Below, in pieces: positions 1,828-49,214 of a stretch of DNA of 64,000 bases (its first letter is position 1; each line of letters begins with the position of its first letter). The translations under genes were made by a program, and so were the position numbers. Origin of the DNA: a virus; IMG/VR virus record IMGVR_UViG_3300042880_000288, positions 1 to 64,000 of that record; one strand, given 5' to 3'. Below the pieces are notes generated by a model, which was not told where the DNA came from, ran no database searches, and saw nothing but the letters and a program-made list of their open reading frames with translations.

Positions 1828-1839
1828 TTTAGTATATTA
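1828..1839 (+). promoter_or_regulatory. Candidate phage promoter element TTTAGTATATTA
   Basis: This AT-rich element lies between the terminator at 1773-1800 and the ATG at 1842, where a new transcript for the ring-muzzle-cargo genes should begin. A near-identical element occurs twice in tandem before the gene at 18293. The motif ends only two bases before the ATG, so if it is a promoter core the transcript would be almost leaderless. It could equally be a translation-enhancing or fortuitous AT-rich tract. Confidence 0.25.
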
Positions 1840-1841
1840 AT

Positions 1842-27400: not shown

Positions 27401-27645
27401 ATCCTTTAGGTGGTCATGAGCTTAATTTTACAGTTCCACCTGTCTTAAGTTCAGGTAGTAATCAGTATCAATATCAATCTAAAATAAATGTGTATAATCC
27501 AGAAACAGGTAAGTTAGAAGAATATTCCGGATGGGAACCTACATTTACAAATGGTCAGGATATAGACGGCATTATAAAAGATTGGGAAGATATGTCAGCT
27601 CAAATCAACCTGCAAAATCAAAATATTAAATACGGATTAGAATAA
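24442..27645 (+). CDS. crAss-like virion cargo protein
   Basis: A 1067-residue, mostly helical, Lys/Gln/Ala-rich protein. Its N-terminus (GVTDYIPQFQPFQPDLNFY followed by a QSQYDSNWKALNKVYGQ stretch) is one I recognise as a hallmark of a conserved large protein in crAss-like phages, encoded between the muzzle and the RNA polymerase. A conserved SGLDLSLEQNV block with FKPFYEDKNLMKDMAWTK follows at residues about 80-110. Coiled-coil-like segments occur at about 255-335 and 395-460. No catalytic motif is evident. It starts behind an A-rich leader after a 61-base gap, so it may begin a sub-operon. It is probably packaged with, and ejected before or with, the RNA polymerase; this is inferred from known cargo genes at this locus. 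Confidence 0.82.
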   Translation: MATYLQGVTDYIPQFQPFQPDLNFYASLMQTKQSQYDSNWKALNKVYGQYFYADLTRDNNVKKKEDLLKQIEFNLKRVSGLDLSLEQNVNQATQVFKPFYEDKNLMKDMAWTKTYNRETGRANALKGSAKEEDRKQYWDTGLKELNYRKDEFKEATDEEAMGMAGVSYTPYVNTMEKALKLAKDAGLSVESVKFTDDQRWIITQKNGQQLIEPLEKLFESSLGSDPGIQSVYKTQAYVNRKDYAFSNAGEFNGDKNAAEMKYLENSFNILKKQRDLQYKSIQKNSDVYDKRINDLQKLIDDKKAPVGSEDKLQDLKDNKKINDDVLARIQKESEMFSNSNSTSTTSSGWTNPYSDVATLRYKVDAGMASTLMEKDFGEAAQIYAYRDAKTSIKENPYKVLEIKHSQEMQQIHTSGAYKIQAQQMANQSREKVAAAKIQADAIKAEKERKADYDKWRVETGNGVYEEYEVTDAQGNKIIDPNTNQPLKDFRVVGNPNQKVTTKTIPNDNLTPIPDNKKANVYDVEKQNLANAQKKAQTDQALNTVFNTLNKLQNKIGPGDLAKLINPDYALAKDKDPMMSGLSAYMDNKGGILAGANQYMKDLMLVSKGTKDLMKVEDIQKGFQEKGADYLMSLSKKYGDTYISGLVERVDSYLAANAPYSPEFEMERQAMQGYVKPLKDYGKYEKVYFQWKDKADKAVAQQMTAQKEMIAAKEYSLKMTDSRGSIFQTKKEFLDANPTYTKLAQETFTGQSYGSSINSPGLGITGTGGRQSTFDEATNQAWNKYLQQVNKIQQKGGIPAGPAAASINGLVNNVFQNAANSVVANQKGGDGRRYYNEMMSTILNSGIAFDGKDGILTYGGFKQSAIKDAKEAETQQKLYTILNDFNTRFNDFTKPQPAIEIGGVLFAAGEKNRAGNFIRLPKEFLDGYYNQADPKKGFLSKDEYDGLLQNGLSIMADSDKIMNSLIEGTFTSPLEAVLKYNKELNFVDPLGGHELNFTVPPVLSSGSNQYQYQSKINVYNPETGKLEEYSGWEPTFTNGQDIDGIIKDWEDMSAQINLQNQNIKYGLE

Positions 27646-30600: not shown

Positions 30601-33600
30601 GCTAATTTAAATGAGGGTACTTATTTTGAAGAGGGTGCTGATAAAGCATTTGAATTATTATTAGACCATTATAAACTTGGAAGAGAGTCTAATATTATGG
30701 CTGACTATATAAACTTACTCCATAATCCAAAAGAATTTGCTGAACATGTTGAAAGAAATTATGAATGGATGTCCCGTCTATATGAAAACAGACAAGACCA
30801 TTATGATAAACTAGTAAATAAACAACTTGCTCATATAGAACTTAATGCTATTCTTAATGCATTAGCTGATAGAAATGTATTCATATCTGAGGAAGATGCA
30901 ATAAATTTCTTGAGAAATCCAAGAATGATCCCTGAAGAATTTTTTGATAATACTAGAAAAGCAGTTATTAGAGAAGGTCATCCAGAGTATGAAGAACTTA
31001 GAACTTTATTTGTTATAGCCTCTGCTACTGCAATCAGAGGAGTTGCTGATCCTACAAATGAAGACTTAGAAAGAAACTTGGATTTCTTAGATGAAGAAAT
31101 GCAAAAAGAAATTGATGCATTACCTCAGATAGAAGTAAAAAGAGGAATCAAAAGTTTAGATACAATGGGAGATCCTTTTGTTGGTATTCAAGCTGTATTT
31201 GATCAATTAGGTAATGACCAATACATTGAAGTTTCTTATTTAGATGCGGCAGGTAAAGAACAAAAACAAATCTTTTATAAAAAAGATGATCAACTTTATT
31301 ATGATAATGATAAAGGTAACAAGGTAGAATTAGATGCTATAACAGCTCAATTTCTTGATGGAGATATCTATACATTAAAATTAGAACCAAAAGATCAAGA
31401 GGCTGTAAAAGAAATAAAAGAAAGGTATGCACAAAGAAGAATAGATTATATCAATAAGATGTCTGAAAAAGTTGCTAATACAGCAGCTGAAGAAGCACAG
31501 AATAGATTTATTCCTTTTACTAGTGCTACTCCATATGAAGATATGGATGTTGAATTAAGAGAACTTTTAGCTGGTGCCTACAATGAATATCTGGATGATA
31601 ATCCAGAGTTGATGGAGAAAGTTGTAGATTTAGATGATTATGCTTATGCTGAGGAAAGAGATTCTTTTATTAGAACAAATAGAATTGCAAAAGAAATAAT
31701 TGATAGATACAATAAAAAGAAATTAGCTGAACAAGCTACTACTCCAACTGGTGAGATTGAAGCACCTGTTATTGAGATAAATGGTCAAATGATTGACTTT
31801 GCTACTTTAACCGATGCTCAAATTAGAAACAAGATTAGATCTTTGACTAAAGCAGCTGACAAGTTAAGTGAAGATATAGAAGCTTTACCTGAAGATAAAA
31901 GAAATAAAGCTGATATAGAAAGATTAGCAAAGATGAGATTTAACATAAATCTTGCTGAAAAGTATCTAGCTAACAGAGTAAAAAATAACAGATCCGCAAA
32001 AATGGAGACTGTAAAAGATATTATCAATAGAGAGATCTTAAGGTTCCAAGATGGTATAACTAAAACTAGCAACAATAGTAAGTATGTAATTGATGATGAT
32101 TTATATACCCGTGTTACCACTGCTATTGAATCACTTAAGAAAGATGCATATAACTATAAGAATATCAATATAGTTTTAGCTGAGTTCAATAAAACAATCG
32201 GCCAAGGAAAATCAGTTGATGACTTTATAGCAGCTCTTAAAACAAGATTACCTATAGGTACAGATGGTATGAGTAAGTATGTATATAAAGTACTTGCCAG
32301 AAATTTAAAACAAGTTATTGAGCCAGAAGATCCTAAAGCTAAAAAATTATCTGCTGATGAACTAAAAAATTATTTAAAAGAACAGATCTCTGAACTTACA
32401 TATGAAGAAAGTAGAATAGGAGGTAACTATTTAGATGCTGAAATAAGAAAATTCCTTGATGAAGGTGAAGCTCAGTTTGATGAAACTAAGATTGATAAAG
32501 CTGCTTTTGATGCAATCTTTGGACCTAATTCAGTACTTGCTAAATTAAAAACTAGACAGGACAATGGTGAAATAAAAATCTATGCTAATAACATTAAGTT
32601 ATTTGATAAAGATTCTAAAATTGCTGGAGAGATTGACTTATTAATAGTTGATAGAGAAGGTGCTGTGTCTATAGTAGATATTAAATCAGGTAATAAAGAT
32701 AAGTGGTCTGGCTTTCATGATGCCGCTAATCCTTATTCTAAAAAGGAAACTTATTTATTACAACAAACAGCATATGCAAACATGTTTTATAACATGACCG
32801 GCATTATGCCAAAAGTTTATTTATTACCTATTGAAATTGAATCAGATCCAAATGTTGACTTAGATGAAAAAACAGGTCTACCAATTGGAGGTAAAATACT
32901 TACTGCAAAATATGCTACGTCTCCAGTACAGTTAGGTGAAAATTTAATTGTATTAGATCCTAATACTGCATATGGTGATGAAACAATTCAAGAAAAAGTT
33001 GATACATTGATTCCAAGAAAAGAATTTGTTCCTGCTGAACCTGCTACAACTCCATTACAAGAAGTAAGTGATGAAGAATTTCAAGATTTTGTTGATAATA
33101 GAAATGTATCACAAAGTAGACTAGATGATATCACCTATAAAATATCTAGAGGTATTGAACTTACAGAGAGAGAATTAGCAATCAGTCAAGAATTTGTAGC
33201 TGATATAAACTTTAAACTAATTCAATTAGCACAACAAGAACAAGAGAATCAAGTGGGTGATGATGCTGAATCTGCTACAGGAAAAGCTGTCTTAGATGAA
33301 GTAAGTAAAGCTCTTACTGAATCTGAAAAAGAAACCAGACAAAGAAACATTGATATATTAAATAGAAGAATAAGTATTCTAGAAAGTAGAGCTCTTGAAA
33401 ATGACAAAAGTTTAGGAGAACTTCAAGATACTCTTGGTTTTTTACAAAATATGTTAGACTCATCTGTTGAAATAGCTGGTCTTGAATTTGAAGCATTAAT
33501 GAATAGTGCTAATAGTTTGTATGAGTTAGCTAATAAATTAAAATCTGCTAAACAAGTAAAAAGGGGAGAAAAGATTAAAGCCAGAGCTGGTCAGTATGAA

Positions 33601-34995
33601 AAGGAAACTAAAGAGAAAGCACGTAAAATTACATTTAAAGAAGCTCAGTTTATTTTAAATACTGTTAGAAAAGTACAAGATGAAATAAGACAACTTGAAG
33701 AGATTAAAAAAGATTTGACTAATCAGATTAATTATTACAATAATCTAAAAACTGATCCATCAATGAGACTTATTAATAAGTCTGAGATTAATCAAAAGAT
33801 TGTTAAGGTTAAACGTAAGATATCTACAATTGAAAAATTAATAAATATCTTAAGAAATGCAATTAGAAAATCATTAGAATATCTTCAAGAGTATTTAAAA
33901 ATCTTTAATAAATATAATACTAAACTTGATAGATTCAGAAAAGATACCGGTTTCCAAGAATTATCAGCTGATGAAATTAGAGCATTGATTGATTCTTTAG
34001 ATCCAAATGATGTATCTACACTAGATAGATATCCTCAACTTAAAAAACAATTTGACACTCTTGTAGATAAAGTTAATAAATCCATGGATGATGTTGAGTT
34101 TACTGATGAAGTCATTCAAGTTGAAAGAGATAGATTAGAAGAATTAGTTGCTGCCCATAAAAAGTATAATGATCAATTAAGATACTTGCAAGAGTTATTA
34201 GAACCAGTTGCTGCTGATGCATTTTATGAAAGTCCTTTGTCTGATAAAAATGCACCTGATGCACCTAAACCAAAAACAGGTGGTACTCCTGCTCAACAAA
34301 GAATTCAAACTAGAATTGAAGAAACTAATAAAGAAATCCAAGATGCTAAAGATGATATGGGTGACACTGTAGGATCATTTAGTCTTAGTGATATAGAAGA
34401 AGCCCCTAGTGGACAACCTGCTGTTAAAACTGAAGGATTTAAAACTCTTTCAGATATGGTAGAAGCTGCTAATGATCTTATTGAATTAAATAAGATCTAT
34501 GATGTAATTACTGACTATACTTTAACAGTAGATGAGTTAGATCAACTATCAGATCTTATTGATCAGAGAACTGAAGCATTACAAACTAATACAGCAACTA
34601 TTACATATAATGAAAATAATATTTCAAAAGGTGATAGATTTATCGTAAAAAATGCTATATTTATTAATAAGGAAATTTTTGCAGAACCAGGAAATTCACT
34701 CTTTATAGAATCTGTTAATGAAAATGGAGTTACAGTATATAAAGTGTTGGGAGGTGAAACAGAAAATCTTACCTTTGAAGAATTAACTAATAATACAACT
34801 CTTGATAACATGTCAAACATCCCACAAGAAGAACCAGTAGTTCTATCTACAGAAGATAAAAATGTAATTAAATCTTCATTAGATGCAGCTAATTCAATTA
34901 CTACAGATGACTTAGATGCAGTTAAAGATTCAATTAAAAATAAATCAATGGATGATTTAGAGAATGATTTATTAGAAACTAATGTTTGTGAATAA
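27652..34995 (+). CDS. Giant virion protein with a PD-(D/E)XK nuclease-like core
   Basis: A 2447-residue protein. The N-terminal 110 residues are Pro-rich. Hydrophobic stretches near residues 230-275 and 605-625 (GFEIFASGALMGLFASPIN) may contact membrane. Most of the rest is charged coiled coil. Around residues 1645-1710 lies a nuclease-like core: GEID with Asp1662, then VDIKSG with Asp1676 and Lys1678, then LLQQTAYANMFY with Gln1704/Gln1705 and Tyr1708. This is the G-x-x-D, D-x-K, Q-x-x-x-Y pattern of RecB/Cas4-type nucleases. It precedes the 4739-aa RNA polymerase gene with a TAATG junction, so the two are probably made in fixed ratio. The nuclease may process host or own DNA after ejection. 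The fold call is by motif only. Confidence 0.82.
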   Translation: MAEDTGIPFNPLDPLGPDVGKVDLPTIDPIGLSPFEGDNINVPTLENYKNVYDIPAVNILPPQSRLVNQAPNVRQLATGTVPGKTPSPVKSSASDRAMAWMAKWKGQNATRNAQPKDSFGRIYSYKDAPNGDAFMERYQAFGQEKFDELGFSPIRNNEALYNDNTTWWQRHSRMMTNSFWPLFFRGFVSGPKSLAKAMTGDFSADPEEADFYERAAAIGQDSTGGFGSFFNNTAMNFGYTAGIITEAIAEEGIALLLAPETGGASVVAATANNMRKLGTVGKTISMSRKLPNFASKGMNLNRASRAQAVARSSAAYGKVLNNSIKGIGGTINGSRGFWNAVRTNNIVKFLNPLDNTIDAIAGVGKNLDNLTGLAKSYQVVNKTAGGLYRDMRALNMALSEARLEGGLVQNSTYEKLYNDYYMKNGETPDDEMQRAMLQQAIDAGQETLLWNVALVYGTNKITFPNIMGPKGGIKNFLRSKTDDILNLDSKVGKMVIRKNKDVVKKGGLKNKYKGEFVEYSFKETLKSFAKDPIRKSAKGALVYLKGNIAEGLQENVQETLSMGLENYYVNKFESNALRAHLFNRAATEYSKDKSEYISEAWKKFNPFTSEGFEIFASGALMGLFASPINQSVEWASIAYNKNFNKEEYNKYIEAKSNYAKGVAATMNRMYSDPQAFFESKIFNYATQDQIFSAKKFGSRKIALDASDEAIVDTVTAFLETGNYDMLKHYIGEYNNMTAEEIEEDLGLEKGLGQKYKDRVNNVLDKANQIEETYNEINKRYPSPINLGDYKKGTDEYKRAAIFNSAWNLAKRNAVFLNSSYKDSLERMSSIVNAVSSDPSLSKTLSARDMEMLTNVSKMKSERDMLKAEIDAVKGSGTASRFDLTGAGKKQKKLDALDEFIKAYDYFQNYEVFDIEEQLDYLEAEGKLKDIKDNDGNALSEKDAREEAKKFLLAKLKVEPKSEEATLQAKTNLETAYKNFLRASANLNEGTYFEEGADKAFELLLDHYKLGRESNIMADYINLLHNPKEFAEHVERNYEWMSRLYENRQDHYDKLVNKQLAHIELNAILNALADRNVFISEEDAINFLRNPRMIPEEFFDNTRKAVIREGHPEYEELRTLFVIASATAIRGVADPTNEDLERNLDFLDEEMQKEIDALPQIEVKRGIKSLDTMGDPFVGIQAVFDQLGNDQYIEVSYLDAAGKEQKQIFYKKDDQLYYDNDKGNKVELDAITAQFLDGDIYTLKLEPKDQEAVKEIKERYAQRRIDYINKMSEKVANTAAEEAQNRFIPFTSATPYEDMDVELRELLAGAYNEYLDDNPELMEKVVDLDDYAYAEERDSFIRTNRIAKEIIDRYNKKKLAEQATTPTGEIEAPVIEINGQMIDFATLTDAQIRNKIRSLTKAADKLSEDIEALPEDKRNKADIERLAKMRFNINLAEKYLANRVKNNRSAKMETVKDIINREILRFQDGITKTSNNSKYVIDDDLYTRVTTAIESLKKDAYNYKNINIVLAEFNKTIGQGKSVDDFIAALKTRLPIGTDGMSKYVYKVLARNLKQVIEPEDPKAKKLSADELKNYLKEQISELTYEESRIGGNYLDAEIRKFLDEGEAQFDETKIDKAAFDAIFGPNSVLAKLKTRQDNGEIKIYANNIKLFDKDSKIAGEIDLLIVDREGAVSIVDIKSGNKDKWSGFHDAANPYSKKETYLLQQTAYANMFYNMTGIMPKVYLLPIEIESDPNVDLDEKTGLPIGGKILTAKYATSPVQLGENLIVLDPNTAYGDETIQEKVDTLIPRKEFVPAEPATTPLQEVSDEEFQDFVDNRNVSQSRLDDITYKISRGIELTERELAISQEFVADINFKLIQLAQQEQENQVGDDAESATGKAVLDEVSKALTESEKETRQRNIDILNRRISILESRALENDKSLGELQDTLGFLQNMLDSSVEIAGLEFEALMNSANSLYELANKLKSAKQVKRGEKIKARAGQYEKETKEKARKITFKEAQFILNTVRKVQDEIRQLEEIKKDLTNQINYYNNLKTDPSMRLINKSEINQKIVKVKRKISTIEKLINILRNAIRKSLEYLQEYLKIFNKYNTKLDRFRKDTGFQELSADEIRALIDSLDPNDVSTLDRYPQLKKQFDTLVDKVNKSMDDVEFTDEVIQVERDRLEELVAAHKKYNDQLRYLQELLEPVAADAFYESPLSDKNAPDAPKPKTGGTPAQQRIQTRIEETNKEIQDAKDDMGDTVGSFSLSDIEEAPSGQPAVKTEGFKTLSDMVEAANDLIELNKIYDVITDYTLTVDELDQLSDLIDQRTEALQTNTATITYNENNISKGDRFIVKNAIFINKEIFAEPGNSLFIESVNENGVTVYKVLGGETENLTFEELTNNTTLDNMSNIPQEEPVVLSTEDKNVIKSSLDAANSITTDDLDAVKDSIKNKSMDDLENDLLETNVCE

Positions 34996-37900
34996 TGAAA
35001 ATTACTTGTGCTCTTAGTAAAGAACATTTACTAAAACTTGCTGCTGTTATATATAAAGATATTGAATCATACCAAGCAGAGAATAAAGCCTATGATGCCA
35101 GAGTTTTAATGAATCAGTTATATGATAAATTAAATAAAGCACAAGGTCAAGAAGTTGCCTTATCTTATATGCAACAGATGCCATTTTTAGTTGGTCAAAT
35201 TGCTTTTAAAGAAAGCACTGAGCTCATTGAAGATTTTGCTATTAATGATCTATTTAAGTTAAATAAAGAATTCAGAAATGAAGATTCTGGAGTTCAATCT
35301 TTATTAAATTTTTTTGGTAAGACAATTGATGCATCTACTCTAAAACTACTTGCAGATGCAGAGTTAAATAATCCTGTTGAGAATGATGGGCCACCAATTG
35401 CTGAAGAACCTCCAATAGAAAAATTTACTGATAAGAGATTAAAAGTTTTAGTTGACAATGCTATATCAACTACCTGGGAAGAGTTTTTAGAAATGGATCC
35501 TAATTTAAAAGTTGATGAAACAATAGAGAATGTAGATCCTGCTAAAACTACTGTATATAATACACTAGATAGACTTAGAAAGTTAACTTCTGGTGGAACT
35601 GCCTTAGATACTATAGTAATGGATGATAACAAGGTTAAACTTAGAGTTTGGTCTCTTAATGCATTTCCTCAAGACTTACTATATCAAAAGACAAAAGATC
35701 TTAAACAAAGAATAAATACATTTCAATCTGGTAAAGCTAAAGATCAAGGTGAAGTAAAACCGGTTACTGAACAATTCATGGTTGTTCTTACAAATGAAAA
35801 AGGTCAGATACTTTATTTTAATGAAGCAGGTGTTGTTACTCCTAAAGAAAATGGAGGTAAACCTGTTTATCAAATGCTAAGAGATGTTAGATTAGAGAAA
35901 GGTGGTGAGTATAGAGTTACAGATATATATGGTAGAGAGGATATGATCCTTGGTTCTGCTCAAACTGCTCAAGCAAGAGTAAAACAAATGGGTTATAAAT
36001 CCATTGATATGTTTGAAAAATCTGAAGGTGTTAAGTTCTCAGATTTTGTAAATCAAATTGAAGAAGAAAGACAAGCAAAGTTTAAAGAGTATTATGATTT
36101 TAGACAGTCCTTAATTGGAATGCCAGCTAATAGACAAATATTTTTACCACTTGTTGATGTAAGTAATGGTGTTAGAAATGGTAGAGTTAGACCAGGAACT
36201 ATGAACATCAATAACTTAAGATCCTTTACTCCTGAACAAGCTGAAGCTATACTACAATCAATTACATTATTAGATACTGATTATATTACTGAAGATAGAA
36301 CACTTAAAGCTAATACATCAGCTGTTCAAATTAATGGAGAAGTATTTGAAGTTGACAGACCAGATATATCAACTGATCTGGCTACAAAAATAGCTAAGGT
36401 GCTTACTTCTAAAGATCTAAGTATTACAAGTAAGTTGGACTTTGTTCAACAGTTTTTAGATAACGCATTAGATGAAGATGTTAGAAGACATTTTATAAAG
36501 TATGATGCTGACCAAAAAAAATTAAGATTTTTATATAGAACATATATAAATGCTCAGTTTAAAGAAATTAAAAAAACAAATCCAAAAGCTGCAAATACAT
36601 GGTTGGAAGTTGATTTAACTGGAGGCCCTGCAGCTGAAGCAAAAATTATTGAAGTTCTTTTGAAAGGTAAAGGAACTTTAAAAAAAGAGAATAATAAAAT
36701 TGTATTGGATAAGAACGGTATTCCTGAAGTGGGAAGATATTATCCAGCTAAAATTAAATACGATAAAGGTTTACTGCAAGACGGTACTTATTTTGATTAT
36801 ATAGAAGATCCAAATAAACCTGGAGAATATATGTTCAGTGTAGGTTCCTATAAAACAGGATTACTTCCAACAATGGATGCTAAAATTGTATTAGGAAAAT
36901 CTAAATCAATTCCTTTGTTTAATAGCTACATGATTTTTGCAATTCCAAATGCATTTTCAGAATCTATTGATCAAATTAAAGATGAGAATGAAATAAAAGG
37001 AGAGCCTTCAGAAATACGTAAGAAGTATAATGAGTTAGTAGATATATTAAAAAATTCTCCTGATCAAAATCCAAGTTTAAAAGCAACAGTTACTGAATTA
37101 GGAAAGATAACACAGACACCTACAGGTAATTATAGAAGTATTGATATTACAATTGAAGGTCAAGAAGGAACTTTTAGATTGTATAGAGTTGTAGATACTA
37201 GTGCTAAAGTTGGAGATGAGATAAGTTTAATACTTAGAGATATTGAAGTACAAGATGGTATGGGATATCCTAATACTATTGTAGGTGTAAGAGATTTTGA
37301 AGGTAGAAGATATGACTTTGGATTCTTACAAGACTCATTCCGTAGTAAAGAATATAATGAACCATCAAGACAACCTGTACCATTAAATACTGAAGCAATA
37401 GAGGAAGCTAAAGAAGAAGAAGAACTTGATGATATAACAGATACACAATCTGAAGTAGGTGAGAGTAAAGATATTCCAATAACTCCTATTGAACCTGGTA
37501 AAGGTAGTATAGGTAGAATACTTGATGAGGATCCGGGGTTTGTTCTTGATAGAAAAACATGGCTGAGTCAATCAGGAATTACTCAAGAGCAATTAAATAA
37601 TGCAAAAGATTGGTGGGAGAATTCATCTTCTGGTAAGCTTTTAAATAAATACATTGAACTCAGTGTAGCAGCAGATTTAGTTAACTCTGATGTATATGCA
37701 AAATTTATTGCTAAAGGAGCATGGCTTTTAGGTTATGCTGATTACAAATTACAGCCAGGTAAACTTGGAGTTATTGCTTTAAATCCCCGTAATGGTGGGA
37801 ACTATGTAGATGTTTATCATGAAGCTTGGCACGTATTTTCTCAGTTATTCATGACTAATGAACAAAGAGTTAAATTATATACAGAGTTTAGAAATTCAGA

Positions 37901-40900
37901 TCCTGCATACAAGGATATGTCCTTCTTTGAAATAGAAGAAAGACTAGCAGAAAACTTTAGAGAGTATGCAAGAAATCCTAAACCTGTTAAAAGTCAACCT
38001 GTTAGAAATACATTATTTAGAAAAATATTAAACTTCCTAAAACAATTATTCGGTAAGGTATCTCCAAAAGATATCATTGATCCAAATATAATGGAAATAG
38101 GAATGGTTAATGAATTGTTTGAAGCTCTTTATTTCAATAATGATAATGTATTAAATAAATTTTCTCCATCCGTAGATAATTTAAAATGGGATGAACTTGA
38201 TAGAGGAGTGGTTGTAAAAACAGAAGAAAAGAATTCTAAGGGTAAAAATATAAAAGTTGAAGTACTGAATGAACAAGATGGTAGAGCTCTTGCAAATACC
38301 ATTGATTCTGTACTATCTGAAATCATTGATGAAAGTTCTAAATTTTATAATAAAAAATCAGGAACTGTAAAAATCTTAACTGATTCCTATAATAAAGGTC
38401 TTGCTTATGATAAGGTTAGAAAGAAGTTCATAGAAGATATTAAACAATGGCAAAAAGAACTTCTTATTAAAGATGCTAAGTTTGATACCTATACCACTTT
38501 AGATCAATTAGATTCAAATGCCTTTGCTGTAATAAGAAGTAAAAAAGGTGATCATAAATATATTTTCTTAAGAGGTCAAGTTGAAAGTTTTAAAAATCTA
38601 ACAGCTGATACTAAACTTGGAGAAAGAGAGAAAGGAAAACTATACAAAGACAATATTGAAATTGTAGCAGATTACTTTGAACATGATTTAATTAAAGATA
38701 GAAAAGGAAGAGGAGCAAGTATAATAATTGTTGATAGTAGACAAGAAGCTGAAGATCAATTTAAAAATTATATTGAAATTGATCCTATTACTAACGAACA
38801 AAAGGCACCTTCAATACAATCAATTAAATTTAATGAAGATAGAGTTGCTGCAAGATTATTTACTCCAGAGCAACAACTTAAATTAGATAACATTAGAATC
38901 TATGAAACAGCACTTAAACACTGGGATTCTATTATTGCTCATCATGAAAATAACTCAACCTTTGATATAATTAAACAAAAATATATCTTACTTGAAGAAG
39001 ACCCAAGTACAAACTCATCATTAGATACTACAAGAGCTAATGAAACTAGGACTGGGGATAAACAAATTGGAGAGTTTACATTACAGGAAATGGCTAATAA
39101 AGAGACTGTATATATATTAAAAAGTCTCTTTAAGAAAGAAAAGAAAGGAACTGGTTATGTTAATGTATATGATAGATTTGGTAATAAACAATTAGCTGAT
39201 TTTAGAACAGTATGGAATGCCGTTGTAAGAGCCACCAATAGTGCAAAAGATCCTCAAAAAATATATGATGCACTTGTAAATGCTGCCAAGTTTTCTCCAG
39301 AACTACAACAGTTAATAGATTATAAGTTGCCTTTACCAAATCAAGTAAATCAATCTTCTTCTGAGTTTGATATTACTACTTCATTCTTTACTGATTTTAG
39401 TAGACCAAAAGTACCATATATTCAATTGTTAGCTTTTGATGATGGTGTAGAATTCTCAACTGAAGTAACAGATGCTGGTATAGATGTAAGTAAAACTTTA
39501 AAGATATTTGAGGCTAAGTTCCGGTCAGATAAAAATGATTCATACATTGAAAAAGATAATAATATATCCAGACTTAATTTAAATGCTGTATTGCAAAATT
39601 TTAGAAATAAAAATAGTGCAAATTTAATTCTTGATGAAGATAAAGCATTTAAGTTTCTTACATCCATTGGATTCTATTTTGATGATCTTACTGCTATTAA
39701 AGATGAATTAAAAGATTTCAATAATAGAAAGTATTATTATATACCAAGAATATTTGAAACAATCAAATTAGTACATGAAGCTAGTTTAGATCCTAACTTA
39801 TCTAAAGAAGGAAGAGAATTAATAAATAAGTTTAGAATGAGTCCATTGAGGGTATTAAGAAGTGGTATACCTGAAAATGTATTGGGTCAGAAAGATTCTT
39901 CTTTATACAAAAATGGGCTTTCACAAAAGACTATTGTTGATAGACTGCTTACATTACAAAGTAAATACGGTAAAACCGGATCTAATTTTAGTGTATTAAA
40001 TCCTGAAAGAAACAGAGTTAATTTACATACTGATGATAACACAGCAACAGTAATAGCTGATGCAATAAATCAAGTAAGTAATAAATCTGATATGTGGACA
40101 AAAACACAGTATAGATTATTAAATTCATTTAACCCTGCAGTTAATGCATTTACTAACAGGTCCCAAATAATGAAAGCTTTATTTGAGCCAAGTAATAAAA
40201 GAAGAACTGACAGATTTTTAGAAATTATTATGGTGGCTGGTACACAGCTTACATTAAATGATGTATTTTTATCAGGAACATCAACTACAAGTTTAGATGG
40301 CCAGGGTAAATTCTTACAAGATTTTCATACATTTCTTAAGTCAGGTTATTTAGAGTTTTTAAGACCAGGTTCTAAATCCTCTTCATTTGGATTCATCTTA
40401 CGTGGAGGTTTCCCTATTGATGTAAAAGGTATGGGTAAGAATAAAGAACAACATCTATATGCAGATATAGATGACTTCCTTACTGCAAACAATAAAGAGA
40501 CTGAAGTAATTGAAAGAATTATCCTACCATATCTTGCAGGTGAACTTGAAAGAATAAATAAATTCAAAGAAAACCCAAAAGCAAAAAATTATATAGGGTA
40601 TAATCAAAAAGTCACTGACTCAGGTAAGAGAGCTGGAGAAGAGTATGCAATATTTGAAGGTATACTTGATGATAAAACTAAATCAGACTTATTAGAAAAA
40701 ATAAACAACTCTGGTATAGATTTAATAAACTATCTTAAAAATGATCCTGATTTAAAATCTAGTTTGATTAAACAAATCAAAGGTTATTTTACTACTAGAA
40801 GTACTGATGTTTATAACAGATTAAATGAAGGTAAATATGTAGATCCTAAACTATATAATAAAGTACCTGGTGATTTGACTAAGTCAGAAAAAGAAAAAGT

Positions 40901-43900
40901 TCTTGCAAAGACTTTCATGTATAATTATTGGATTCATAGTGTTGAGACTCAGATATTATTCTTAGGTGACATATCTCAATATAATCATCTTAAAGAAGAA
41001 TTACATAAGAGAACTTCTGGTTTGATTTCAAATGGTCCAAGATTTAGGACTGATACTGCTGCTCAATTATTTATAAATAATAAAGCTTTATGGGCAAAAA
41101 GTACTTATGCATCTACTTTACCTGCTGAGTATCAAAACTTTGAATACAATGGTACATTTAATACCGCCATCATGGAGGATATTACTAGAGATAGTGAATA
41201 CTTAGATATAATTAAAAAAGGTCTTGAAAAAGATTATGCAAAAAGATATGCTTTACTTCCAACAGCAGAAGCTAAAAAACTTATAGAAGAAAGAGTAGCA
41301 AAAGAAATTGCTAAATATACGGCAGATGAAATCAAAGAAGGTGATGGTCAAGGTTATATTACTGTTGATGCATATAGAACATTAAAAAAATTACAAAACC
41401 GTTGGTCAGATCAGCAAGAAGTTCTATATCAAAAAGTAATTAAAGGAAGTGAGATTACACCAGCAGAATATATTGAACTTTTTCCTCCATATAAATTACA
41501 ATACTTTGGTCCATTAGTAGCACAAACAAAAGATTTTGCTAATGGTACAGTTTTACCAGTTACAGCTTTCCATAAGTTTGCCTTGGTACCTTTAATTCCA
41601 TCATGGGTAAAGGGTTCTGATCTTGAAGTATTGCATAAAGAAATGCTAAGGAATAACATTCAATATGCAACATTTGGTAGTGGATCTAAGGTAGGTGCAG
41701 TAACATCTGATGGTGAATTAGATAAAATTTATGAGCCCGGTTCAGATAATAAAAAATTAAAAAGTAAAATAAACTTTACTAAAAATACTATTAATGTTGA
41801 GTACTTAAAAGAAGTAACCAGTGTACCTAGTAAATTAAAAGGTAAAGTTATATTCTCAACTCAGTTAAGAAAATTAATTCTTGAAGGATTATTTATTAAA
41901 GGAGAACTTGTAAATGGTGCTAACAAAGATATAGTAGAAGGATACACTTCATTGGTTGACTCTTATACTAAATTATTAAAAGAAGAATTATTAACTGAAA
42001 TTGGTTATACAAAAGAGAATGGAGTATATGTTGGTAAGCCTGCTAAATTATTAAAATTAATCAAAGACAATTTAGCTAAAAAAGATTACCCAAGTCACCT
42101 TCTTGATGCATTAAAAACAAATCCTGATGGTTCACTTAAGTATGACTTATCAAATTTTATTGATGCTCAAACTATAGAAAGAACTGTATTATCAATTGCT
42201 GAAAATAGATTTGTTAAACAAAAACTAAAAGGAGAAGCTTTAGTTCAAGTAGCAAGTTCCATGACAAATGGTTTATGGACTGCAGGAAATAAATTTAAAG
42301 CAGGATCTAAGGAAGATGTATTAAAGTATATGGGTACTAATAATCTACCTTTCTATTATCCTGGTGAGGATGGTAAAACAAATGCAATGAAAGTTGCTAT
42401 TGCTTTACAAGGAGACTTCTTCAATTTATTAAACTTAAATGACTTAGATGGTCAACCAATTAAGACAAGAGAAAGACTTAATGAACTGATCAAACAAGAT
42501 GAATGGTTAAATAAAGATAACAACCGTAAAGCTATTACCATGACTGCTGTTAGGATTCCTGTACAAGGACTTAACTCTATGGAGTTTATGGAAGTTTGGG
42601 AGTTCTTGGATCCTTCTGCAAGTAATATTATTATTCCTCCTACAGAACTAGTAGCAAAATCAGGGGGTGATTATGACGTTGATAAGCTTACTACATTCAT
42701 GCCTAACATAGATAAAGATGGTAATGTTTATACTTCAGATAAAAATGCAAAAGCTTTACTTGATTCTATTAATGAAGCAGACAGTAAAGATAAAATGGCC
42801 TTAATCAAGCAAGCTAAAAAAGTAATGGAAAATGACTTGATCACTAGTATCAGATCTATTCTTGAATTACCAGAAAATTATGCAACTCTTGTAAGACCAA
42901 ATGATACTTACATGCTTAAAGATATTGCTGATGAATTAGCTGATGTTGTAGTTGATTATGATAAATTCCAAACAGTAAATAGAAAATTCAAAGAATATAG
43001 AATTGTAAAAGGTAAAAAAGCAATTAGTCCTACTACTACATTAGAACCTTTATATAATATTGATAAGTTTAATGGTAACATGATTGGTAAAGCAGTACTT
43101 GGTATTGGTGCCAATGAGAATGCTTTTAGTCCTTTATTAAATTCTATTGGTGCTAAAATGCCATTGACTTATCAGGAAAGTGAATTTGATCCAAAAATCA
43201 ATAAGTATAAAGATATAAAGGATGGTGAAACTTATAGAACAAGATTACTATTACGTCATAATAAAAATGCTGATGGTACAATTTCATTAGCAGATGTAAA
43301 CTCTGTTGATGCTGTAAATAAAATAGCTGACTTGTTTTCACAAGGTATGAATGGATGGGTTGACGTTGAAAAAGATCAGTGGATCTTTTATATTCAAGGT
43401 AACTTAGAAATATCTCCTGTATTACTGTATTTATTAAAAGCTGGTGTACCTGTGAGAGATGCTGTTATGTTTGTGTCTACTCCTCTTATTAGAGAGTATG
43501 CAAATAAACAAAGACTATTGAAAAGTCCATATGCAACTCTAATGGGTATTGCACCTACTGAACCTCAGTTTGCTCAATATAATGCAGCTAATGAAGTATT
43601 AAGTCCTGCTATAGATGCTTACTTGAAAAGAACTATTGATAAAGCTGTATTCTCAGGTTATAGTTTTGATACTGCATCAATAGCTTACTATGGTTTAGGT
43701 CCTAATGGTAGAAAACAATTAATGACTCAAGAGTTCAAAGGAACTGATGATCAAGTGATTAAAGATCAAATTAATGACTTCTTACAATATGTTGATTCAA
43801 ATGATGTCATGAGAATCAATTTTTATCAGCAAGCAGATAGAAGACAAAATAATAAAGTATACAGTAAACCAAGAGTTTCAAATAAAGAAATTTACAATTC

Positions 43901-46900
43901 AGCTGTACAATTAAGTGATAATAATTTAGATAGCTTTGGTAATTTTGATAAAGCTAAAATTGAACAATTAGTTAAGTCTAAAAATGATACTGATAAATAT
44001 TCTGATTTTTCAATGGCTGCATTCTTGCATTTTATTGAGATTGAAAAATATTTAAAGGGTCTAGGTAATGTAAAAAGATTATCTAAACCAGATACTCAAA
44101 CATTTAAAACTATACAAGAGGTTTTATTAAGAGATCTAAATATTGCATACTTAAATGATTACAGTAAAGTTGATAAAACTACTTTTGATAGATTAAGAAA
44201 TGACAGCATTCTTGCTGCTCTTGCAGATAAAGATATAATAACTCAAGTAATAAGTCCATTGTTTTCATTAAGAAATAGCAAGCAAGTATTAGATCAGATT
44301 GTTTCTACTATCAATACTAAAACAGAAGCTCTCAAAGAAAGATATGGTGGTCTTGGAGCAGACAACATTAGTAGGTTTATTGAAGAGTATAAAAATGCCA
44401 TCAATACATTTATACTACAAAACTTCTTAAGTAACAATATAAACTCTAATGGAGAGATTGTTTTAGTGCCGGATACTTACAAAGGTTTTGAAGTTGTTAC
44501 TAATGAAAATCTTGAAACAGATGTTGAAGTAACTGAGAAGGATGGTAAGAAACTTATTAGAGTTAATCCAAAAAGAATTGAAGCTGACTTTAAAAATAAA
44601 AACTACTTAGTAACCAGTAGCTCTAACAACTCTTACAAGTCAAGAGGCCTTGAAGCATTCCAAGTTGGTGATGATGTATTTGAATCTAAGTCAAGTTACT
44701 ATAGATATGTTATAGAAAGAGAGTATTTAAAAAATAAAGGATTTACTAAAGAAGAACTTAACAGTATTGCTTTATTGAATACTTATAATCCATCTGTAAT
44801 ATTGAGAAGAGGTACATATTCTTTTACAGATCAGTTATTAGAATCTATTCAACAGTTTCCAGAACTTTCTAAATATCCTGTAGTAAACCAATTAAGTTTA
44901 TATGCTTTTTCTAATGAATTTAATGTATTAACTTTAAATGATAAAGGTTTACTTGATGGTGCTCAAGCTGATATATATGCTCAGAATATTAGAGAACTAG
45001 CTAATCCAAAAATCCAAAAGATTGCAAACACTAAGGATAATGAAAAAATAAGTAGATTATTTTACATGCTTCAATTAATGGCAACTTACCAACATGGTTC
45101 AGGTCCTTCAATTGATGGCTTTAATGAAATACTACCTCAAGATTCATACTTAAGTGTTATGAATAATGCTAGTCCTTTATTCACTAAATACTATTTTAAT
45201 GAAGATACTCTTGAATATATTGTTGATGTTCTTACAGCAGATAAATTAAGAATTAAGAACTATACAAGCATGCCAACAAGTAATAATACATTTGTTATTG
45301 AGGCTAAAGCTGAAGGTGCTCAACCATCTATTAAACCAACAACTCCTACTTTAACTGTAAATGATCCTAAAGATTTTACAAATCATTCGGGTGGTGCTGC
45401 TTTATCTGATACTGAATGGGATCAAATAGGTAGAGAGTTTGGGGTAACTAATCATAAACATTATAGAGAGCCTTTAGATTATGTAGATACAAAAGGTGAA
45501 GCTGCTAAAGGAAGTAAAACATTAGATTCTAAAAAATTACAAGCAGCTGGTATTGAACCTACTCATATTAGTCAAAAAGACTATAATGAAGGTGCACAAA
45601 AAGCTACAAAAGCTTTTAGAATGATGTATACTGATTCTGAAAATAAATCAGTAAGAAGTGCCTATATTATTCGTAACTGGTTACAAGTTAAAAATGCTGA
45701 TGCCATATTTGCATTAGGTACTATAAAACAACCTGGTGAAAATGCATCTGATAAAGCTGGTGAAACAAGAATAGCTGCTGTCCCTATTGTTAAAGGTGGT
45801 ACAGGATATGCTGTTCAAATGGCTATTAATGAAGGTAAACCTGTTTATGTATTTGATGGTACTAAAGAAGGATGGTATAAGTATGATTATTCAATTAAAA
45901 ATTTTGTAAAAACTGATACACCAACTCTTACTAAAAACTTTGCAGGTATAGGAAGTAGAACACTAAGTACAAAAGAAGTAATAGACAAATCATTACAAGC
46001 CATCAGAGATGTATATACTCAAACATTTGGGGCTAAACAAAAATCAGATGGTACAACAGTTAAATACAAGTACTATGGTGCTATGTATGATATTGTTGTA
46101 GAGAATGGACTTGGTATAGATGTATTAAACTATAAAGGGAAACCGGCTAAAAAAGCAATTTTATTAGCTTACTTTAATCAAAATCCAAATATAGATCCTC
46201 AAAGTACTGGACCTGATCCAATAGTTTTAAGTGATGAAGAAATAAATAATGATGATACAGGTAACTCAGATCCAACAACAGGTAATACATTTACTTTTGC
46301 TGATGGTTATGAGATTGAAACTCCTTTTAAATTAAACAAAGAACAAGAGGCAGCTCTGTTAAAACTTGAAGAATTCTATAATGATCCTAAAAAATTCAAT
46401 AATGAAATTACATTGATTGGATATGCAGGAACTGGTAAAACTTCAATCATGGCTCTCTTTGATAAATGGTTGAATAAAGGATGGTTTGGACCTAATATAG
46501 TATATACTGCACCAACTCATAGAGCAAATGCTGTTACTAAACTTAAGAATCCTAAAATTAAAGTATTAACTCTCCATTCCTTATTTGGATTTGGTCCTGA
46601 AGTAGACTTTGAAGGAATGGATTATGACGTAAGAGATTTACAATTTGCTAATAATAGAAATGGAAAAATTGATAAAGGTCAAATACTTATTGTAGATGAA
46701 TCTTCTATGATTACTGATGAATTATATGATTTCTTAGGTCAGCAAAAAGATAAGTATGATCTTAAAGTTATATACATGGGTGATCCAGGACAGTTAGGTC
46801 CTGTGCAAAATAAAGGAGGCTTGACATCAAAAGTATTTTCTAATCCCACATCTAGTATTACTTTAACTAAAGTAGAAAGAACAGGAGATAATCCTATACT

Positions 46901-49214
46901 AAAAGAATCAACTGCACTAAGATCTGGAGGTTCTTTATCATATCAGTCTGCAGAAATTAATGGAAAAGGTGTTGAATATATAAATAGTACAGCTAGAGAA
47001 AATCAAATACTTGCTGAAAATCTTAATGAAATGAGAGACTCAGAAAACTATTTGTATTTTAGAATGTTAGCTGCAACAAATCCTGAAGTAGCTAGATTAA
47101 ATAAAGTAGCGAGAGAAATATTATATCCTCAAACCTATCAAGAACAATTAGTAGTTGGTGAAATTCTTATGGGGTATGATAATTTTGGTAGAGATTATAA
47201 AACAGGCCAGTCTTTATTATATAACTCTGGAGATTATATGATTACTCAACTTAAGAAAGATAATAAAGAAGTCTATATAACTAATTATGAAAAACAAGGA
47301 GACAAATTTGTAAATATCGGTTTTGAAGAATTGAATTTTACTGGATACAATGTAACTCTTAAAAATCTATTGGATCCAGAAGCAAAACCATTTGAAGTCT
47401 TTATACCAGATATTGTAGGTAATGATGATGCATCTACTAAACTTGCAGATTCTATTCATAAGTTAAACTATATGGGTAAGATTGCTGGTTATGGACAAGA
47501 TAAAGCTAAATATTTTGAAGCAGCTTCTAATTTATCTAAACAAGTATTATTTATGAATGACGTAAAAGGTTTAACTGATAAGTCTAAAATTAAAAAAGCA
47601 ATAGACTATGGTTATGCTCATACAATTCATAAATCTCAAGGTGGTACTTATACTAAAGTATTTATAAATGATCCTAGTATAACAGGATTAGTAGGATATA
47701 TTAAAGATAGAAGAAGACTTACCGATGATCAAGCACAAACTGTTGAAAGACAATTAAAGTATGTTGCTGTATCAAGAGCTACTGACTATGTATATATTTC
47801 AACTAATAGAAGTGCTGCAGGAAAACCTACTAGTTTTGATGATCCGGCCTCTGGAGATTTTGATACTGTAGGAACATTTAATATCAATGATTTAAATCCA
47901 CCATCTAATCCACCAATATCAGGAGAAAGAAAACCTATTGAACCAATAAATGCTCAAGAAATTGAAGATGGTTTAATCTTACAAAAAGGTGTTCTTACTA
48001 AAGAAGAACAAAAACAATTCTTTCAATTTGGTAAAACAGTTCTAGAAAAGAATGGTTATAATCCTTTTGCACAATATGTTATGGCCTCTGCTGGTAAAAT
48101 GGAATGGAGTCCTGAATTTGTAGTTGATAAAAATGGAAAAGGTGTAGATAGACCAGGAAATTATAATACTGGAATCATTCAAATTAAGAAAAACCTAGGA
48201 GGAAGAGACAGTAAAGAAAAAAGATGGAATTATAATTACTACCTCACTAATTTTGATGGTACTACTATAGCTCCAATACCAAATAATATTATAAGTATAC
48301 TAGAAAAAGTTACAGGTCAAGATATGTCTGACTATGATACAGTTCTAATTAACTTATATCCATTAGGTAGAACACTTGGTTGGCATCAAGATATAACTGA
48401 AGATTATAGAAACATGGATAGAGATATTATATCTGTATCTATTGGAGCAGATGCTGATTTTACTTACAATAAAAGAGATAAATTAAGTTATGCTCCTGCA
48501 GCAGATAGTATTCCTGATGGTGTTGTTAATTTAAAGAGTGGGGATGTTATGAGTTTTGGTGGTAAATCTAGACTTGTTCAACATACTGTAACTAATGTAA
48601 CAGGTCAGACAGATTTAGGAACCATAAATCTTGCTAACTCTAATGTAAATAAATATTTTAATGGTGGTTTAAATTTATCTAACTGGAGAATGAACTTTAC
48701 ATTTAGAGTAGCTGATTCTAAAAATAATAATGGTAAAAGAGGATTAGTTTCTACAGTAATTCCAGGTATTAAAAAGTTTGAAGGACAAATGACCTATGCT
48801 TATGGTCAAAATAAAAGAGCTGGTGTAATAGCTAATACAACATTTGATGCCATATTAACGGGTGAAAGAACAGCTACTACAAGATATGAAACTTCAGATA
48901 ATATTGAATACTGGAAAAAAGCCAAAGTTGGAGATATTATTACATGGAAATCTGATGATGGCCGTACTGTAGATGTAGAAGTAACAAGACCACTACATAA
49001 ATTAGTGGGGTCAGGTAAAACACCAACTGATTGGAGCCAACTTGAAGGCTGGTCAATATCTTATTTTAATGAAAAGGTTAGACCTAAACTTGATAAAGCT
49101 TGGCAAATTGAGTTTAAATTACCTGCACCGCCTGCTGCTGAAACAGAAATTAATGATAACTTTATTGATCCTTTTGAAGATGATCAAGAAAATAATTGTG
49201 CATATCCTTTTTAA
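34995..49214 (+). CDS. Giant virion RNA polymerase fused to zincin, SLOG-like, SF1 helicase, AlkB and ASCH modules
   Basis: A single 4739-residue frame with no internal stop. In order: a helical N-terminus; YHEAWHVF with His942, Glu943, His946 (HExxH zincin motif); a long region leading to SGGDYDVDKL, with Asp2559, Asp2561, Asp2563 forming the DxDxD metal-binding loop of the crAss-like two-barrel RNA polymerase; SGGA at 3465 with a YAVQMAINEGKPVYVFDG block (SLOG-like Rossmann domain); a partial second GIGSR copy at 3651; an SF1 helicase with Walker A GYAGTGKT (3809-3816), Walker B VDES (3900-3903), GDPGQLGPV, HKSQGG and VAVSRA; an AlkB-type dioxygenase with His4464, Asp4466, His4530 and the RxNxTxR motif (Arg4565-Arg4571); and an ASCH-like end (LTGERTATTRY). 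The polymerase call is firm. The protein is probably packaged and may be cleaved into parts. Confidence 0.9.
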   Translation: MKITCALSKEHLLKLAAVIYKDIESYQAENKAYDARVLMNQLYDKLNKAQGQEVALSYMQQMPFLVGQIAFKESTELIEDFAINDLFKLNKEFRNEDSGVQSLLNFFGKTIDASTLKLLADAELNNPVENDGPPIAEEPPIEKFTDKRLKVLVDNAISTTWEEFLEMDPNLKVDETIENVDPAKTTVYNTLDRLRKLTSGGTALDTIVMDDNKVKLRVWSLNAFPQDLLYQKTKDLKQRINTFQSGKAKDQGEVKPVTEQFMVVLTNEKGQILYFNEAGVVTPKENGGKPVYQMLRDVRLEKGGEYRVTDIYGREDMILGSAQTAQARVKQMGYKSIDMFEKSEGVKFSDFVNQIEEERQAKFKEYYDFRQSLIGMPANRQIFLPLVDVSNGVRNGRVRPGTMNINNLRSFTPEQAEAILQSITLLDTDYITEDRTLKANTSAVQINGEVFEVDRPDISTDLATKIAKVLTSKDLSITSKLDFVQQFLDNALDEDVRRHFIKYDADQKKLRFLYRTYINAQFKEIKKTNPKAANTWLEVDLTGGPAAEAKIIEVLLKGKGTLKKENNKIVLDKNGIPEVGRYYPAKIKYDKGLLQDGTYFDYIEDPNKPGEYMFSVGSYKTGLLPTMDAKIVLGKSKSIPLFNSYMIFAIPNAFSESIDQIKDENEIKGEPSEIRKKYNELVDILKNSPDQNPSLKATVTELGKITQTPTGNYRSIDITIEGQEGTFRLYRVVDTSAKVGDEISLILRDIEVQDGMGYPNTIVGVRDFEGRRYDFGFLQDSFRSKEYNEPSRQPVPLNTEAIEEAKEEEELDDITDTQSEVGESKDIPITPIEPGKGSIGRILDEDPGFVLDRKTWLSQSGITQEQLNNAKDWWENSSSGKLLNKYIELSVAADLVNSDVYAKFIAKGAWLLGYADYKLQPGKLGVIALNPRNGGNYVDVYHEAWHVFSQLFMTNEQRVKLYTEFRNSDPAYKDMSFFEIEERLAENFREYARNPKPVKSQPVRNTLFRKILNFLKQLFGKVSPKDIIDPNIMEIGMVNELFEALYFNNDNVLNKFSPSVDNLKWDELDRGVVVKTEEKNSKGKNIKVEVLNEQDGRALANTIDSVLSEIIDESSKFYNKKSGTVKILTDSYNKGLAYDKVRKKFIEDIKQWQKELLIKDAKFDTYTTLDQLDSNAFAVIRSKKGDHKYIFLRGQVESFKNLTADTKLGEREKGKLYKDNIEIVADYFEHDLIKDRKGRGASIIIVDSRQEAEDQFKNYIEIDPITNEQKAPSIQSIKFNEDRVAARLFTPEQQLKLDNIRIYETALKHWDSIIAHHENNSTFDIIKQKYILLEEDPSTNSSLDTTRANETRTGDKQIGEFTLQEMANKETVYILKSLFKKEKKGTGYVNVYDRFGNKQLADFRTVWNAVVRATNSAKDPQKIYDALVNAAKFSPELQQLIDYKLPLPNQVNQSSSEFDITTSFFTDFSRPKVPYIQLLAFDDGVEFSTEVTDAGIDVSKTLKIFEAKFRSDKNDSYIEKDNNISRLNLNAVLQNFRNKNSANLILDEDKAFKFLTSIGFYFDDLTAIKDELKDFNNRKYYYIPRIFETIKLVHEASLDPNLSKEGRELINKFRMSPLRVLRSGIPENVLGQKDSSLYKNGLSQKTIVDRLLTLQSKYGKTGSNFSVLNPERNRVNLHTDDNTATVIADAINQVSNKSDMWTKTQYRLLNSFNPAVNAFTNRSQIMKALFEPSNKRRTDRFLEIIMVAGTQLTLNDVFLSGTSTTSLDGQGKFLQDFHTFLKSGYLEFLRPGSKSSSFGFILRGGFPIDVKGMGKNKEQHLYADIDDFLTANNKETEVIERIILPYLAGELERINKFKENPKAKNYIGYNQKVTDSGKRAGEEYAIFEGILDDKTKSDLLEKINNSGIDLINYLKNDPDLKSSLIKQIKGYFTTRSTDVYNRLNEGKYVDPKLYNKVPGDLTKSEKEKVLAKTFMYNYWIHSVETQILFLGDISQYNHLKEELHKRTSGLISNGPRFRTDTAAQLFINNKALWAKSTYASTLPAEYQNFEYNGTFNTAIMEDITRDSEYLDIIKKGLEKDYAKRYALLPTAEAKKLIEERVAKEIAKYTADEIKEGDGQGYITVDAYRTLKKLQNRWSDQQEVLYQKVIKGSEITPAEYIELFPPYKLQYFGPLVAQTKDFANGTVLPVTAFHKFALVPLIPSWVKGSDLEVLHKEMLRNNIQYATFGSGSKVGAVTSDGELDKIYEPGSDNKKLKSKINFTKNTINVEYLKEVTSVPSKLKGKVIFSTQLRKLILEGLFIKGELVNGANKDIVEGYTSLVDSYTKLLKEELLTEIGYTKENGVYVGKPAKLLKLIKDNLAKKDYPSHLLDALKTNPDGSLKYDLSNFIDAQTIERTVLSIAENRFVKQKLKGEALVQVASSMTNGLWTAGNKFKAGSKEDVLKYMGTNNLPFYYPGEDGKTNAMKVAIALQGDFFNLLNLNDLDGQPIKTRERLNELIKQDEWLNKDNNRKAITMTAVRIPVQGLNSMEFMEVWEFLDPSASNIIIPPTELVAKSGGDYDVDKLTTFMPNIDKDGNVYTSDKNAKALLDSINEADSKDKMALIKQAKKVMENDLITSIRSILELPENYATLVRPNDTYMLKDIADELADVVVDYDKFQTVNRKFKEYRIVKGKKAISPTTTLEPLYNIDKFNGNMIGKAVLGIGANENAFSPLLNSIGAKMPLTYQESEFDPKINKYKDIKDGETYRTRLLLRHNKNADGTISLADVNSVDAVNKIADLFSQGMNGWVDVEKDQWIFYIQGNLEISPVLLYLLKAGVPVRDAVMFVSTPLIREYANKQRLLKSPYATLMGIAPTEPQFAQYNAANEVLSPAIDAYLKRTIDKAVFSGYSFDTASIAYYGLGPNGRKQLMTQEFKGTDDQVIKDQINDFLQYVDSNDVMRINFYQQADRRQNNKVYSKPRVSNKEIYNSAVQLSDNNLDSFGNFDKAKIEQLVKSKNDTDKYSDFSMAAFLHFIEIEKYLKGLGNVKRLSKPDTQTFKTIQEVLLRDLNIAYLNDYSKVDKTTFDRLRNDSILAALADKDIITQVISPLFSLRNSKQVLDQIVSTINTKTEALKERYGGLGADNISRFIEEYKNAINTFILQNFLSNNINSNGEIVLVPDTYKGFEVVTNENLETDVEVTEKDGKKLIRVNPKRIEADFKNKNYLVTSSSNNSYKSRGLEAFQVGDDVFESKSSYYRYVIEREYLKNKGFTKEELNSIALLNTYNPSVILRRGTYSFTDQLLESIQQFPELSKYPVVNQLSLYAFSNEFNVLTLNDKGLLDGAQADIYAQNIRELANPKIQKIANTKDNEKISRLFYMLQLMATYQHGSGPSIDGFNEILPQDSYLSVMNNASPLFTKYYFNEDTLEYIVDVLTADKLRIKNYTSMPTSNNTFVIEAKAEGAQPSIKPTTPTLTVNDPKDFTNHSGGAALSDTEWDQIGREFGVTNHKHYREPLDYVDTKGEAAKGSKTLDSKKLQAAGIEPTHISQKDYNEGAQKATKAFRMMYTDSENKSVRSAYIIRNWLQVKNADAIFALGTIKQPGENASDKAGETRIAAVPIVKGGTGYAVQMAINEGKPVYVFDGTKEGWYKYDYSIKNFVKTDTPTLTKNFAGIGSRTLSTKEVIDKSLQAIRDVYTQTFGAKQKSDGTTVKYKYYGAMYDIVVENGLGIDVLNYKGKPAKKAILLAYFNQNPNIDPQSTGPDPIVLSDEEINNDDTGNSDPTTGNTFTFADGYEIETPFKLNKEQEAALLKLEEFYNDPKKFNNEITLIGYAGTGKTSIMALFDKWLNKGWFGPNIVYTAPTHRANAVTKLKNPKIKVLTLHSLFGFGPEVDFEGMDYDVRDLQFANNRNGKIDKGQILIVDESSMITDELYDFLGQQKDKYDLKVIYMGDPGQLGPVQNKGGLTSKVFSNPTSSITLTKVERTGDNPILKESTALRSGGSLSYQSAEINGKGVEYINSTARENQILAENLNEMRDSENYLYFRMLAATNPEVARLNKVAREILYPQTYQEQLVVGEILMGYDNFGRDYKTGQSLLYNSGDYMITQLKKDNKEVYITNYEKQGDKFVNIGFEELNFTGYNVTLKNLLDPEAKPFEVFIPDIVGNDDASTKLADSIHKLNYMGKIAGYGQDKAKYFEAASNLSKQVLFMNDVKGLTDKSKIKKAIDYGYAHTIHKSQGGTYTKVFINDPSITGLVGYIKDRRRLTDDQAQTVERQLKYVAVSRATDYVYISTNRSAAGKPTSFDDPASGDFDTVGTFNINDLNPPSNPPISGERKPIEPINAQEIEDGLILQKGVLTKEEQKQFFQFGKTVLEKNGYNPFAQYVMASAGKMEWSPEFVVDKNGKGVDRPGNYNTGIIQIKKNLGGRDSKEKRWNYNYYLTNFDGTTIAPIPNNIISILEKVTGQDMSDYDTVLINLYPLGRTLGWHQDITEDYRNMDRDIISVSIGADADFTYNKRDKLSYAPAADSIPDGVVNLKSGDVMSFGGKSRLVQHTVTNVTGQTDLGTINLANSNVNKYFNGGLNLSNWRMNFTFRVADSKNNNGKRGLVSTVIPGIKKFEGQMTYAYGQNKRAGVIANTTFDAILTGERTATTRYETSDNIEYWKKAKVGDIITWKSDDGRTVDVEVTRPLHKLVGSGKTPTDWSQLEGWSISYFNEKVRPKLDKAWQIEFKLPAPPAAETEINDNFIDPFEDDQENNCAYPF

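Follow-up and report, generated by a model that had tools for sequence, protein, structure and literature searches.

How can a phage send ~0.7-1 MDa of polymerase-associated protein down a tail that narrows in places to <50 Å? The question is raised by a 64,000-nucleotide stretch of viral DNA (hereafter, the window), positions 1 to 64,000 of the 120,701-bp virus genome IMGVR_UViG_3300042880_000288 in IMG/VR, in which three giant genes follow one another on the plus strand. The middle gene, B (34995-49214), encodes, by homology over an open frame, a Crassvirales-type virion RNA polymerase (RNAP) of 4,739 residues. It is flanked by A upstream (27652-34995, 2,447 residues) and C downstream (49224-55028, 1,934 residues), partners recognized by homology as gp67/gp47-type and gp65/gp49-type virion RNAP-associated proteins, respectively; A overlaps B by 1 base, and B and C almost abut. 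The RNAP itself is of an already known type. The surprising part of the locus is a cysteine rule that appears to tie B to A and C, which was not picked up in the original prediction, an annotation of B from the DNA sequence alone.

Together, the A, B, and C proteins of the window comprise 9,120 residues and contain four cysteines, every one of them terminal. The single cysteine of A is the second residue from its C terminus (codon 34987-34989), the only two in B are residue 5 (35007-35009) and residue 4735, the fifth from the end (49197-49199), and the single cysteine of C is residue 5 (49236-49238). To see how general this is, we counted cysteines over 70 genomes, scoring a chain end as positive if a cysteine lies within 10 residues of it. 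Ends facing a break between two chains carried a cysteine in 233 of 234 cases; the single negative end reflects start-codon choice and is resolved with the start codon of its homologs. Outer ends were free of cysteine in 118 of 119 cases. The one exception is the end of protein C1 in locus L080, where the next gene, C2, opens with a cysteine, i.e., the end faces a C1|C2 break. Only 66 interior cysteines were found in 473,313 residues. Break-facing C termini are acidic on average and the partner ends slightly basic, the C terminus being the more negative in 91 of 115 pairs. The gp45- and gp46-type large virion proteins adjoining A-B-C showed no terminal-cysteine pattern, with one partial exception: the gp45-position proteins of Leptolyngbya phage Lbo-JY46 (L090, 1332-3353) and Flavobacterium phage Fpv3 (L208, 2051-3847) have a single cysteine at residue 5 (MKKKC...), a possible further coupling. 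No prior mention of the pattern was found in the literature searched, outside of which lay the 2020 phi14:2 RNAP paper.

The fate of these cysteines was followed in genomes where the genes are fused, split, or rearranged. Where a single gene encodes both A and B (cr118_1, cr1_1, cr50_1, and Fpv3), the N-terminal cysteine is absent, and where B is joined to C (cr11_1, cr271_1, and Lbo-JY46), the C-terminal cysteine is absent. Chains of 5,472, 5,005, and 5,636 residues, in which A, B, and C are all fused, contain zero cysteines; a fourth such chain (5,002 residues) has two internal ones. Where C is split into two genes (L080 and L155), a new cysteine pair is gained. The A|B break lies before the zincin-like region in genomes of the window type, whereas in crAss001 and Dulem41 that region comes first; in both arrangements the cysteines track the break. 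In crAss001, DAC15, and others, A is encoded on the opposite strand, and its terminal cysteine is kept.

The rule was also tested on 110 further loci, some of which are phages already counted as GenBank records (L094 is identical to crAss001), making the set not wholly independent. RNAP chains with a separate C had a C-end cysteine in 77 of 79 cases; both cysteine-less ends resemble interrupted genes, and L189 has the cysteine at the end of the following piece. With C fused, a C-end cysteine was found in 0 of 8 chains. All 12 convergent A proteins had a cysteine. The N-end part of the test is not strictly blind, since "A fused" was defined as a zincin beyond residue 1450 and 8 loci were classed by gene order instead; the N-end cysteine was absent in 34 chains. 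In 25 of these the position of the zincin indicates fusion, 8 follow solely a short cysteine-free gp46-type gene, and 1 (L115) is a start-codon question.

We consider it probable that A, B, and C form one physical unit, a cysteine-coupled and threadable cargo in which the tail of B serves as an exchangeable cargo bay. B would be packaged together with the giant proteins A and C. The near absence of cysteine would allow threading through portal and tail without stray disulfides, and the one cysteine on each side of every break would couple A to B and B to C, head to tail. These couplings would most likely be disulfides, reduced in the host cytoplasm to release A, B, and C, so that the RNAP and its swappable enzymes would be drawn through the tail as a single thread; gene fusion would be the permanent form of the same coupling. 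To the more specific version, a redox-releasable train with one disulfide per break, uncoupled in the cytoplasm, and with fusion and disulfide evolutionarily interchangeable, we give somewhat better than even chances; here the disulfide chemistry, the thread, and the ejection as a train, with its timing, are what we infer. Reports on cultured relatives are consistent with such a route: gp47, gp49, and gp50 of crAss001 were found in the virion by mass spectrometry, its tail has constrictions of <50 Å, and passage of the cargo needs partial unfolding (PMC10172136). The phi14:2 homologs are likewise virion proteins by tandem mass spectrometry, and the phi14:2 RNAP is known to transcribe early genes; by analogy B is presumably packaged in the virion of the window phage. 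A thioredoxin-like protein is annotated in some of these phages (L085, 4535-4780; L083, 32617-32886; L093, 23958-24227) and may serve ribonucleotide reductase.

Several points weigh against coupling by disulfides. Many members come from the anoxic gut, where oxidation requires a catalyst, and the terminal cysteines could bind metal or another partner instead. In L191 (3309-7541) and L196 (3416-8056), a large open reading frame (ORF) without a C-terminal cysteine lies ahead of an RNAP with an N-terminal one; possibly this ORF is not the A gene, and otherwise these are true exceptions. Fused B-C chains and some B proteins retain interior cysteines, up to 14 in cr271_1. The genomes counted are kin and so do not represent independent events; breaks have been gained, lost, or moved several times. 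Finally, Bayfield et al. describe disulfides for tail and portal-vertex proteins and, in the main text, none for the RNAP proteins.

Could the cysteines instead be a shared packaging or anchoring signal, bound by a capsid or portal protein or by metal, and not couple A, B, and C at all? Their location in short, variable termini would suit such a role, as would the position of the crAss001 virion cargo near the portal (PMC10172136). However, a signal for another partner would be expected to outlast fusion or to occupy the outer ends, whereas no such cysteine is kept in fully fused A-B-C chains, the outer ends lack it, and cysteines are present on both sides of each break. We regard this alternative as unlikely. 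Far less credible still is an origin in nucleotide constraints at gene junctions, e.g., translational coupling, rather than in protein function. The 1-base overlap of A with B and the near adjacency of B and C in the window would fit such constraints, but the cysteine codons are mixed (TGT/TGC, 240/42) and lie at offsets from -10 to +6, and other overlapping junctions of the same operon have no terminal cysteine. Moreover, the rule is kept with A on the other strand, as in crAss001, where gp47 lies opposite gp50 and gp49, which excludes translational coupling or a junction DNA signal; we rejected translational coupling as the source of the cysteines on the convergent A genes and the codon mix.

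The B frame is real. It begins with ATG and runs for 4,739 codons with no internal stops, as originally predicted, and a second, separate IMG/VR contig (L006) carries an identical gene, with 0 mismatches in 14,220 nucleotides and 1 base difference in 34,217 when flanks are included. This repetition argues against mis-assembly, which we rejected. The window also contains a PHROG match to DNA polymerase, and PHROG matches to the terminase large subunit (TerL), portal, and major capsid protein (MCP) lie elsewhere in the record; the phage may thus belong to the order Crassvirales. Three further giant proteins of the same gene block (1,498, 1,370, and 1,067 residues; 9626-18234 and 24442-27645) contain zero cysteines.

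The catalytic region of B (41232-43604) was assigned with a profile built on this region in 38 relatives. Searched against the PDB, the profile matched 6VR4, the phi14:2 RNAP, with E=1.5e-48 and the DxDxD loop aligned; no other entry fell below E=0.01. In B the loop reads DYDVD (residues 2559-2563; 42669-42683), and DxDxDK is invariant among the aligned relatives. Weak G-alpha matches at residues 1978-2059, inside the conserved polymerase core, were disregarded. N-terminal to the loop, an HEAWH motif (HExxH; residues 942-946, 37818-37832) marks a zincin-like region (37680-38099), a putative metallopeptidase common to other crAss-like proteins, with local homology to cr118_1 and cr1_1 and to the C-terminal portion of the crAss001 and Dulem41 A proteins. 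In two relatives, cr108_1 (L083, 12471-24061) and cr116_1 (L088, 6233-17098), the RNAP gene is broken inside DxDxD by a gap or a small cysteine-rich ORF; these interruptions are likely self-splicing introns. The 6,381-residue RNAP chain of L039 (7386-26528) matches the window core twice (residues ~5-3146 and 5271-5902), which suggests either that this chain has a second polymerase region or that the contig is chimeric.

C-terminal to the polymerase lie further modules. The superfamily 1 (SF1) helicase (residues 3749-4274; 46239-47816) matches a Dda-like PHROG at 3e-72 as well as Pfam AAA_30 and UvrD_C_2; both the Walker A/B motifs (Walker A, GYAGTGKT, 46419-46442) and the UvrD C-terminal domain are present. 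PADLOC matches to this helicase were generic, of RecD/UvrD type, and gave no evidence for a defence system. An AlkB-type 2-oxoglutarate (2OG)-Fe(II) oxygenase follows (residues 4399-4571; 48189-48707; Pfam, 2.6e-20), in which HQD at 4464 and RMNFTFR at 4565 fit the HxD and RxxxxxR motifs; the metal and 2OG residues are intact. The polymerase, zincin motif, helicase, and dioxygenase domain of the original prediction are thereby all confirmed. So is an ASCH-like domain (residues 4594-4712; 48774-49130), for which Pfam, PHROG, and PDB sequence searches returned no convincing match and the predicted fold alone gave the identity: in an AlphaFold model with a predicted local distance difference test (pLDDT) score of 79, the top PDB fold matches were ASCH/DUF984 and E. 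coli YqfB (E 4e-4 to 1e-3). The motif of the ASCH superfamily, which we take to be GxKxxxxR, reads GERTATTR here, with Arg in place of Lys in all three aligned members, and because of this substitution we do not assume YqfB-like catalysis. The predicted SLOG-like domain fared less well. Residues 3471-3690 (45405-46064), a segment common to L058, L019, and L071, match a DprA-like PHROG (best E 4e-8 with the tail set, 1.4e-3 with the window protein). Foldseek returned no significant match (cpYpsA-like 3imk at prob 0.44), a PDB profile search gave no firm support, and hhalign against cpYpsA tails was negative; the assignment is plausible but weak.

These modules belong to a part of the protein that varies between relatives. 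Residues 1 to ~3430 of B form a conserved core, with ~30-47% identity in most loci, found in ~70 IMG/VR contigs. The tails that follow the core in relatives range from 68 to 1,509 residues. Among 52 distinct tails, an AlkB-type oxygenase occurs in 8, a Dda-like helicase in 7, DUF7831 in 4, NADAR and cpYpsA in 3 each, ART-PolyVal in 2, and an AAA_33 kinase and RNase H in 1 each. L055 and L080 share ~150 tail residues at 80.6% identity, while their cores are 22.7% identical, and 28 tail-module pairs lie >10 points above core identity. By these sequence comparisons, tail modules have been exchanged between relatives out of proportion to core kinship. The data suggest that the tail is cargo under diversifying exchange, plausibly counter-defence; in content, it looks like polymorphic counter-defence or nucleic-acid-repair cargo, and at entry the modules of the window tail probably target nucleic acid or defences that rely on nucleotides. 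Alternatively, B might be simply a large crAss-like RNAP whose tail has no function and is either decaying or the product of random accretion, as the widely varying length and content of tails, <100 residues in some relatives, would allow. Against this, the catalytic motifs of the window modules are intact, the same kinds of module turn up repeatedly and pass between relatives as whole units of high identity, and the frame stays open over up to ~1,500 residues and is always Cys-terminated, which makes a functionless tail improbable.

The original prediction saw in B a complete takeover kit delivered at entry, possibly uncatalogued. Delivery is a fair inference from the virion homologs in phi14:2 and crAss001, but "complete" over-reads a module set that varies, with relatives swapping its members. 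The full SLOG-helicase-AlkB-ASCH set was found, among the loci examined, only in the window phage and its identical contig. The zincin-RNAP-SF1 helicase fusion is already in GenBank (cr118_1), and with the annotation of the cr50_1 RNAP as "DNA helicase", of the cr109_1 RNAP as "DprA-like", and of a cr11_1 protein as "RNAP associated protein fused to zincin protease", the fusion is partly catalogued. Giant crAss-like RNAPs have also been described before, of up to ~6000 residues (PMC10136315; see also PMC7886860).

For the cultured phages crAss001, phi14:2, DAC15, and Fpv3, the near-exceptionless cysteine rule yields a prediction of the joining residues and of the proteins that each would connect. 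If true, coupling would represent a new means of linking proteins that are ejected, and it might serve as a design for protein cargo that can be threaded and then releases itself. New counter-defence enzymes acting at the moment of entry could be sought in the exchangeable tail.

Among known systems, the virion RNAPs of N4-like phages (Schitoviridae) are giant, like B, and are injected, as B probably is. They are reported to be cysteine-free, which has been ascribed to passage through the tail and the oxidizing periplasm (PMC3715699, PMC3915230). Unlike B, they are single chains of an unrelated, T7-like catalytic fold, with neither break nor terminal cysteine. The B tail resembles the polyvalent proteins of phages and conjugative elements (Iyer et al., 2017, PMC5512222), long mosaic multi-enzyme proteins delivered with DNA, and ART-PolyVal domains occur in tails of B relatives; crAss phages are not mentioned in that study, and in the window the modules hang on an RNAP. 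Module order was compared across Crassvirales, as the original prediction had proposed: the tail set is variable, and the order zincin, RNAP, Dda-like helicase recurs in cr118_1 gp14 (Besingivirus, 4,946 residues, annotated "exonuclease V"), which also has a C-terminal cysteine. It differs from B in that A is fused in the chain, the N-terminal cysteine is absent, and AlkB and ASCH were not found. In crAss001, gp47, gp50, and gp49 are likewise three giant RNAP-associated virion proteins with a terminal cysteine at every break; there A is on the opposite strand, the zincin is in A, and an enzymatic tail of the B type was not found. phi14:2 gp66 (6VR4) is shorter than B (2,180 residues), with no zincin found and no helicase/AlkB/ASCH tail. 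Together with gp67 and gp65, however, it is like the window both in the catalytic region and in A-B-C order, and its terminal cysteines are placed as in the window: at position -1 of gp67, 3 and -2 of gp66, and 3 of gp65.
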